Source: a bacterium
Lineage (GTDB): Bacteria; Pseudomonadota; Alphaproteobacteria; Rhizobiales; JAKIUO01
Assembly: GCA_024228495.1 (NCBI GenBank)
Contig: JAAETJ010000054.1
Span: 1-44,577, forward strand
Length of the DNA stretch: 44,577 nt
Direction of reading: 5' to 3'
Below, one piece after another: positions 34,924 through 38,771 of this stretch. How positions within the stretch are numbered: the stretch's first letter is position 1; each line of letters begins with the position of its first letter. The translations under genes and the position numbers were made by a program. Under the pieces are notes generated by a model. The model had not been told where the DNA came from and did no database searches. It was given only the letters and a program-made list of their open reading frames with translations.

Positions 34924-35796
34924 TCAGCCAAGCAGCTCAACAAGCGTTGTGCCTAGACTTGCCGGACTGTCGGCAATAGCCGCGCCCGCTGATTTGAGTG
35001 CTTCGATTTTTGCCTCAGCCGTGCCTTTGCCGCCAGAAACAATCGCGCCGGCATGGCCCATGGTTTTGCCTTTGGGAGCGGTGAGCCCGGCAATGAAACC
35101 AACGACAGGTTTTTTTATGGCATGGTTTTTTAAAAATTCGGCCGCTTCTTCTTCTGCCGTACCGCCAATTTCACCAATCATGACGATGCTTTGCGTTTCC
35201 TCATCATTGAGGAACAGATCGAGGCAATCGATAAAATTGGTGCCGTTGACGGGATCACCGCCAATTCCGATACAAGTCGACTGCCCAAGCCCCACATCAG
35301 AGGTCTGCTTAACCGCTTCATAAGTGAGCGTGCCCGAACGAGAAACAATGCCGACCGTGCCACGTTGATGAATATGTCCCGGCATAATCCCGATCTTGCA
35401 TTCGTCGGGGGTAATAACACCAGGGCAATTAGGACCGACAATACGCGATTTCGAACCACTCAGGGCGCGTTTCACCTTGACCATATCGAGCACTGGAATA
35501 CCCTCGGTGATCGCCACGATCAGCGGTAGCTCTGCATCGATGGCCTCTAAAATAGCATCGGCTGCAAAGGGCGGCGGTACATAGATTGATGTAGCGGTGG
35601 CACCAGTTTCGCGTACCGCTTCCTTGACCGTATTGAAAACCGGCAAATCGAGATGCTTGGTGCCGCCCTTGCCAGGCGTGATACCGCCAACTATTTTGGT
35701 GCCATAGGCAATCGCCTGCTCGGTATGAAACGTCCCGTGGGCACCGGTAATTCCCTGACACAAAACACGTGTATTCTTATCAACGAGTACAGACAT
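34924..35796 (-). CDS. sucD: Succinyl-CoA synthetase alpha subunit
   Basis: 290 residues, binding CoA and carrying the phospho-His. TKVICQGIT-type CoA-binding start ([19 protein letters not shown]), [19 protein letters not shown] and the catalytic His248 in [14 protein letters not shown] are all present. With SucC it converts succinyl-CoA to succinate with NTP formation in the TCA cycle. AGGAG precedes the ATG at 35796, excluding the upstream in-frame Met at 35823. It is separated from sucC by about 690 bp, which is unusual. Confidence 0.97.
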
Positions 35797-35989
35797 AAAG
35801 TGGTCTCCTGTTTGCTTTCTCAAGCACCCTACACAGTCAGCTTTAGAACGTCCAGAACTGGATTAGTTTGTTTGAACCATTTCTCCCGTCGTCACGACTA
35901 ATAAACAAGAGGACTTGTCTTGGAGCGCTGTTAAAGAGCTCAGGCAATTCCCCTGACCTTGCAAAGACCAACAACGAAAGGCGAATATT

Positions 35990-36482: not shown

Positions 36483-37649
36483 TTAACTCCCCTGCACAGC
36501 CGCTACAACCTTCTTGGCGGCATCGCCCAGATCATCGGCGGGAATAATCGCAAGGCCGCTGTCTTCGAGTATTGCCTTGCCAAGCGCAACATTTGTGCCC
36601 TCTAACCGCACGACCAGTGGCACGGTGATATTCATCTGCTTAGCGGCGTCGACAATGCCCTCGGCGATGATATCGCAGCGCATGATACCGCCAAAAATAT
36701 TTACCATGATACCTTCGACATTGGGGTCAGAGAGGATAATTTTAAAAGCGTTCAAAACCTGCTCTTTGGTGGCCCCGCCGCCAACATCAAGAAAGTTGGC
36801 CGGGGAAGCCCCCTCTAGCTTGATGATGTCCATGGTACCCATGGCCAGACCCGCACCATTGACCATGCAGCCAATATTGCCATCCAGTTTGACATAGTTG
36901 AGGTCAAAGCTACTAGCCAGCAGCTCGGTTGGCTCTTCTTCGTCAAGATCGCGCAGCTCCAGGATATCCTTGTGTCGGAACAAGGCGTTATCATCGAAAC
37001 CCATCTTGGCATCCAGGATCAACAGCTCGCCAGATTTGGTGACGACAAGCGGATTGATCTCAATCAAGGACGCATCTTTTTCAAGAAACAGATTGTAGAG
37101 CCCACCGATCAAACGGATGCACTGCTTGAAGGCATCACCTGAAAGCCCCAGTGCAAAAGCGATCTGGCGGCCATGAAACCCGGAGATGCCACTGGCAGGG
37201 TCAACATCGATCGAGATAATTTTTTCAGGGGTGCTGGCGGCCACTTCTTCAATGTCCATGCCGCCTTCGGTGGAAGCGATAAAGCTGACGCGCGAGGTGG
37301 CACGATCAAGTAGCACCGAGAGATAAAGCTCGCGATCAATCGAGCTGCCCTCTTCCACATAAATGCGAGAGACCTTTTTGCCCGCTGGACCAGTTTGATG
37401 GGTGACCAGCTGCATGCCGAGAATATCGTTTGCATGAGTTTTGACATCGTCCACCGACTTGGCGATCTTGACGCCGCCGCCCTTGCCGCGCCCACCGGCA
37501 TGCACCTGCGCTTTGACAACCCAAAGATCGCCGCCGATCTCACCGGCCGCAGCCACAGCCTCATCAACACTCAAGGCCATAATTCCCTTGGCCGTCGGCA
37601 AACCATGCGCCTTCATTAGTTCCTTGGCCTGATATTCGTGGATATTCAT
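36483..37649 (-). CDS. sucC: Succinyl-CoA synthetase beta subunit
   Basis: A 388-residue ATP-grasp subunit. [18 protein letters not shown] is the canonical start, [14 protein letters not shown] the nucleotide-binding loop, [12 protein letters not shown] and [14 protein letters not shown] the later motifs, and [17 protein letters not shown] the C-terminal CoA-ligase part. GGAG precedes the ATG at 37649. It lies 123 bp downstream of mdh in the same direction, the usual alphaproteobacterial order mdh-sucC-sucD, with a 91-bp inverted-repeat element in the mdh-sucC gap. Confidence 0.97.
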
Positions 37650-37672
37650 GAGGTTCTCCTTCAGCAATCATT

Positions 37673-37763
37673 TGTAGGGTGCAATACATTGTACCGTTGC
37701 GATCTCTCAACAGACACTGTGCACTTTAGTTAGGCGATACGGCACAATACATTGCGCCCTACA
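37673..37763. repeat. 91-bp inverted-repeat (MITE-like) element between mdh and sucC
   Basis: A 24-bp arm at 37673-37696 matches the reverse complement of 37740-37763 at 20 of 24 positions. All four mismatches can be G-T wobbles on one strand or the other, three of them in the minus-strand transcript. The arms begin TGTAGGG. It sits wholly between two co-oriented genes and so would be transcribed as a long stem-loop. No obvious target duplication is visible. Confidence 0.75.
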
Positions 37764-37772
37764 GCTCCAGCA

Positions 37773-38771
<999 letters not shown>

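Follow-up and report, generated by a model that had tools for sequence, protein, structure and literature searches.

The inverted repeat between the putative mdh and sucC genes of the analysed window (the whole stretch of 44,577 nucleotides) is very probably a REPIN, two GTAG-headed REPs in inverted orientation, which was dispersed through the genus by a hairpin-recognising RAYT and persists here as a relic after the loss of that RAYT. The element is real but ordinary and belongs to a known type. Five genomes of the genus, designated G000 (the window's own genome) to G004, were compared.

The two arms (37673-37696 and 37740-37763) match at 20 of 24 positions and are separated by 43 bp. Across the whole window, a scan for inverted arms of 24 bp that agree at 20 or more positions and stand 3-100 bp apart returned this place only, in two overlapping registers, and each of 20 dinucleotide-preserving shuffles of the window contained 0 such arm pairs, which bears out the inverted repeat described in an earlier, sequence-only reading of this DNA. 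Rather than one simple palindrome, the element consists of two complete REPs facing each other, each with a GTAG head and a short palindrome (GTAGGGYGCAAT-NN-ATTGYRCC). The left REP (37674-37696, + strand), a GTAG head with an imperfect palindrome (together GTAGGGTGCAATACATTGTACCG), is composed of GTAG + GGTGCAAT-AC-ATTGTACC and has 0 mismatches to the pattern GTAGGGYGCAATNNATTGYRCCG; the right REP (37740-37762, - strand) is inverted, reads GTAGGGCGCAATGTATTGTGCCG on the - strand, is composed there of GTAG + GGCGCAAT-GT-ATTGTGCC and also has 0 mismatches to the pattern. The sequence-only reading had let the arms start with TGTAGGG; the conserved unit begins with GTAG at 37674 rather than with TGTAG, and the base preceding GTAG varies among copies. 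With heads outward, the whole REPIN (37674-37762) measures 89 bp end to end, and this span is 87-89 bp in 16 REP pairs, the window pair included; the mdh copy in G001 measures 88 bp and the copy adjoining the G001 RAYT 78 bp. The variable spacer between the REPs (37697-37739) can be aligned with its orthologues in G001 and G004 and differs from the spacers of copies elsewhere. A repeat search of 37500-37900 reported no inverted pair and listed only the 17-nt cores of both arms, as a directly repeated pair, which fits the nearly palindromic make-up of each arm.

Compared with 200 shuffles each, the predicted folding energy of the element was -41 kcal/mol for transcript-strand RNA (z -4.2), -36.2 kcal/mol for + strand RNA (z -5.2) and -19.4 kcal/mol for + strand DNA (z -4.1). 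The predicted transcript-strand stem comprises 24 pairs with one inner mismatch. The arm mismatches had been described as G-T compatible on one strand or the other, and on the strand that is transcribed the four arm differences indeed give three G-U pairs and one remaining C-A. Rfam covariance models gave 0 matches over 37400-38000 at E up to 1.

The window ORFs around the element, all on the - strand, are putatively mdh (malate dehydrogenase; 37773-38741, 322 aa, stop codon 37775-37773) upstream of the element, sucC (succinyl-CoA synthetase beta; 36483-37649) and, further downstream, the co-directional sucD (34924-35823). The listed sucC ORF opens at TTG 37667; the likely start is the ATG at 37649, upstream of which AAGGAG occurs at 37661-37656. 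The relatives of Mdh are up to 77% identical among the 80 kept, and the named ones are mostly from Rhizobiales (Hyphomicrobiales). The REPIN is separated from the preceding mdh stop by 10 nt and from the following sucC ATG by 24 nt, and mdh and sucC are presumably co-transcribed with the REPIN included.

Copies of the REP were found in four of the five genomes. Searching with GTAGGGYGCAATNNATTGYRCCG and up to three mismatches gave 6 (G000), 28 (G001), 17 (G002), 0 (G003) and 4 (G004) matches, counts that are slightly too high in that some single palindromes are read on both strands; the reversed pattern, used as a control, gave 0 matches in all five. The G000 assembly (5.1 Mb, 1,254 contigs, 99.4% complete, 4.5% contamination) contained, besides the mdh-sucC pair, a second pair at C422:11749-11835 and single REPs at C265:25314 and C498:14843, and this is the answer to the genome copy count that the sequence-only reading had proposed. 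That reading would have taken armless spacers in relatives together with a lack of other copies as an indication of chance, a situation that does not apply here, with copies present in both the genome and the genus. Dispersed copies are thus seen in the genus and are few in G000 (two pairs and two singles), and ten REPIN pairs with at most three mismatches in both arms were present in G001. Among 249 genomes drawn evenly from the order, the exact pattern occurred in six, four of which are of this genus (G000, G001, G002 and G004); the two outside it are G050 (1 match) and G199 (19 matches). The listed pairs of G199, which belongs to the same order and another family, have their heads inward and measure about 57-61 bp (e.g., C46:8491-8547), another dimer layout. 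At C265:25314-25336 of G000 (L202:1515-1537), the GTAG of the single REP supplies the TAG stop of a 215-aa ORF.

One intact RAYT ORF flanked by the same REPs was found in G001 (C10) and one in G002 (C33). Both match NCBIfam NF047646, the REP-associated tyrosine transposase (E 6.9e-59 in G001 and 1e-58 in G002), and the G001 protein matches the E. coli 'TnpArep' structure PDB 4er8 over residues 2-175 of 176 (E 1.9e-51). The RAYT of G004 is split across two contig ends (C85:1-400 and C144:8505). One of these ends, inspected by eye, starts with what looks like the tail of a transposase, as though the RAYT had been interrupted by an insertion sequence. The genus RAYT was not found in the G000 assembly searched, in which the best match, on the 3.4-kb contig C3, was 30% identical and which is fragmented enough for a RAYT to be missed. 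The RAYT-like gene on C3 scores 97.6 bits against a cut-off of 80 and sits among other repeats. It is a different RAYT-like gene (C3:791-1198; L208, L225), with copies of another palindromic repeat, AGCAAGCTGAAGCTTGCACTCCTGGAGTGCAAACTTCAG, nearby, on a contig that could be contamination.

The region that adjoins the RAYT in G001 and G002, with a putative rph-like gene, is present in G000 with no match to the RAYT. Moreover, the single REP at C498:14843-14865 of G000 is the site where the RAYT of G004 begins: the flank including the REP is 83% identical to G004 over 1,485 columns, and the match stops 12 bases before the first codon of the RAYT. Based on these two observations, it is most likely that the window's genome lost its RAYT rather than never having one. 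REPs are many where the RAYT is intact (G001 and G002) and few where it is split (G004) or was not found (G000); in G003, which is 88% complete, neither RAYT nor REP was found. The REPINs were presumably mobilised by the RAYT. G000 also has 25 matches to Y1_Tnp (IS200-like) transposases, several of them with internal stops or at contig ends. Around 17 of these 25 matches, three weak GTAG stems (L015, L017 and L023) were found and none of this REP.

The mdh-sucC REPIN occupies the same place in G000, G001 and G004. The spacer of G002 is 348 nt long and contains a 94-aa ORF in place of a REPIN. This ORF (L043:1213-1494) is hydrophobic and has no Pfam match; its equivalent in G051, 48% identical, occupies the same position. 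The mdh-sucC query gave no match in G003. Altogether, a REP pair was present in 3 of 106 co-directional mdh-sucC spacers, namely those of G000, G001 and G004; the 106 comprise 29 from the genome set (window included) and 77 named records, with at least one probable overlap (L044/L142), and the other spacers contain single, looser matches to the pattern that look like chance. The comparison of relatives' spacers suggested in the sequence-only reading therefore found the arms in two relatives and their absence in a third.

The predicted transcript-strand fold is -41.0 kcal/mol in G000, -40.8 in G001 (z -5.1) and -29.3 in G004 (z -2.2, equalled by 8 of 200 shuffles), and because of this weaker fold the G004 copy looks decayed. 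Arms diverged more slowly than the inner spacer in one of the three species pairs, with p values of 0.008 for G000-G001, 0.22 for G000-G004 and 0.74 for G001-G004. Between G000 and G001, the arms differ at 4 of 44 sites and the third codon positions of mdh at 87 of 322. The sequence just outside the REPIN is as conserved as the arms (3 differences in 34). Among the four species, third codon positions of mdh differ at 87-104 of 322, so there is no close pair. With orthologues in three species, absence in G002, these fold and divergence data and no close species pair, the mdh-sucC REPIN is an old element that at least one species can do without and on which any constraint is weak.

The second REPIN of G000 (C422:11749-11835; L201:1550-1636) is orthologous in G000, G001, G002 and G004; it follows the stop of an AIRS-domain gene at a distance of 2 nt and precedes a co-directional MFS gene. 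An inner inverted repeat, TTGG...CCAA, was noticed by eye in its spacer. The REPIN pairs of G000 and G004 are thus at the same two places, mdh-sucC and AIRS-MFS, which is suggestive and is explained by common descent without selection. Two further G001 sites, L188 (between S-adenosylmethionine synthetase and methyltransferase genes) and L190, were compared across relatives. The REPIN is absent from both sites in G000 and G004, while G002 has none at L188 and, at L190, one clear REP with a degenerate partner; such absences are compatible with loss and with later insertion alike.

Which pairing was kept during evolution was assessed on an alignment of 18 REPINs (two from G000, ten from G001, four from G002 and two from G004). 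Before counting, the degenerate pair L193 and the single or half-degenerate REPs L187, L189, L192, L194, L198, L202 and L203 were left out, as were the REPs adjoining RAYT genes except for the G001 pair C10:2824-2901. The stems within each REP were paired in 98.4% of cells, a value reached by none of 500 shuffles, and 0 of 500 also reached their covariation score or their 12 two-sided cells, where cells count related copies and not independent events. The within-REP covariation comes from one position per stem, which is T-A in 23, C-G in 12 and something else in 1 of the 36 REPs, and because of this confinement two other within-REP measures did not rise above the shuffles, of which 385/500 reached the number of pairs changed on both sides and 500/500 that of further pair types. 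In the long stem that joins the two arms, 91.1% of cells were paired, and 185 of the 500 shuffles reached its covariation score. Six long-stem pairs showed two-sided change (reached by 6/500), and six of the ten two-sided cells of this stem are at the two REP loop positions. The window row departs from the other rows at columns 19 and 71 alike, with C-G turned into U-A and the long-stem pair kept. Recognition of the single REP hairpin predicts this pattern better than selection on the long RNA stem does. The suggestion of the sequence-only reading that RNA-level selection keeps the stem has in its favour the six two-sided pairs and the C-G to U-A change, but it finds no general support, with the between-arm score at the level of the shuffles, a weaker stem in G004 and no element in G002.

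Several other origins of the element were weighed against the REPIN reading. That the arms are an inverted repeat arisen by chance is practically negligible, given the empty shuffles and the several copies, and no point in its favour was found. An attenuator or intrinsic terminator evolved in place between mdh and sucC would account for a strong hairpin in an intergenic spacer; however, neither strand has a T-run after the stem, a terminator scan (loops of 3-8) gave 0 hits, and copies stand at unrelated places while few mdh-sucC spacers carry a REP pair, which makes this origin highly improbable. A classical MITE, an element with terminal inverted repeats that a DDE transposase mobilises, would likewise be short, non-coding, bounded by inverted repeats and present in several copies, and the sequence-only reading had regarded the element as a MITE captured in an operon. 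Its view of a captured, miniature and non-autonomous mobile element among co-directional genes, with other copies, holds, but the class has to be changed to a REPIN of two REPs of the RAYT type: the arms are individually covarying palindromes headed by GTAG, these REPs also flank a RAYT gene, and no target-site duplication was seen in 16 elements, of which three had a 3-4 bp flank match, a total that re-paired flanks equalled or exceeded in 470 of 500 trials. A MITE is thus very improbable. Some observations weigh against the REPIN and RAYT reading as well, among them that G000 has very few copies for a REP and that G003 (at its 88% completeness) shows neither RAYT nor REP.

More weight is due to the view that the REPIN has been domesticated, being kept because its stem sets the stability or translation of mdh mRNA relative to sucCD. 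On the one hand, it starts within the 15-nt limit for E. coli REPs that lower translation, which do so at <16 nt after a stop codon (Liang et al. 2015, as cited in PMC12306157), the stem is strong in both G000 and G001, G000 and G004 have their REPIN pairs at the same two places, the two-sided long-stem pairs are rarely reached by shuffles and include the change in the window row, and the arms differ less between G000 and G001 than third codon positions of mdh do. On the other hand, the stem is weaker in G004, the spacer of G002 is a different one with its own ORF, common descent accounts for the shared sites, the arms are slower than the inner spacer in one species pair of three with equally conserved sequence outside, and the between-arm score is at shuffle level with most two-sided cells at REP loop positions. 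Taken together, domestication of the element seems unlikely.

The history of the locus may accordingly be pictured around the REPIN reading. REPs would have been dispersed in the genus by the RAYT, a TnpArep-type tyrosine transposase recognising each REP as a single-stranded hairpin; a REPIN copy would have entered the mdh-sucC spacer before the divergence of the species that share it; and the window's genome would then have lost the RAYT, leaving an immobile relic. When transcribed, the element is predicted to fold into a stem that lies behind the mdh stop codon and ahead of the ribosome-binding site of sucC. A mild effect on mdh-sucC mRNA is plausible, considering the predicted -41 kcal/mol stem 10 nt after the mdh stop, and it is more likely a by-product than a selected control. 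If the stem does act on the mRNA, the likeliest route would, by analogy with reports on E. coli REPs, be protection of the mdh message upstream of it or a slowing of the ribosome where that message ends. A wider proposal would be that after RAYT loss REPINs fade except where they stand a few nucleotides after a stop between co-directional genes, the hairpin there being a useful mRNA element, so that orphaned REPINs would mark domesticated operon controls. It is based on G000 and G004, which have REPs without an intact RAYT and whose sole REPIN pairs lie at mdh-sucC and AIRS-MFS, and we regard it as doubtful.

Within a single genus, one REPIN family is accompanied by an intact RAYT, by a split one or by none that was found, and it has orthologous copies, which makes it possible to ask which REPINs outlive their transposase. 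The case also calls for caution, as what looks like one inverted repeat in an operon may consist of two palindromes whose pairing reflects recognition by a transposase and not RNA control. Among the titles and abstract openings of the open-licence literature searched, no description of a REPIN in the mdh-sucC spacer was found.

The pattern of RAYTs and REPs in this genus fits two reports, in which RAYTs are flanked by two inverted REPs and their presence correlates with the abundance of their REPs (PMC2817692), and REPINs occur more often in E. coli genomes that carry a RAYT than in RAYT-free ones (PMC8049555). The element resembles the REPINs of P. fluorescens SBW25, described by Bertels & Rainey (2011, PMC3116915) as RAYT-tied inverted REP doublets with singlets as their remnants, in its two inverted REPs, the less conserved spacer, the dispersal between genes and the RAYT link; it differs from them in REP sequence and in having far fewer copies (two pairs in G000 and ten in G001). 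The GTAG-tagged REPs, of which 24 families are distinguished by Di Nocera et al. (2013, PMC3733652), share with it the GTAG at one end, the short stem-loop with alternative complementary stem residues and the outward-GTAG dimer termed 'HH', as well as a position mostly downstream of ORFs and RAYT-REP units (REPtrons) that are missing in some species. REPs between co-directional genes lie near the 3' end of the upstream gene according to the same paper, so the position after mdh is the usual one and does not in itself speak for a function. The E. coli TnpArep system is similar in that its protein is matched by the G001 RAYT (4er8) and in its GTAG-headed REP hairpin substrate, but E. coli REPs have two mismatches forming a bulge (PMC8266576), in contrast to the 98.4% paired within-REP stems here. 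E. coli REPs are reported to be able to block exoribonucleases (PMC12306157) and to act on translation or mRNA stability (Liang et al. 2015 and Newbury et al. 1987, as cited in PMC12306157), and the mdh-sucC REPIN resembles them in lying close downstream of a stop codon.
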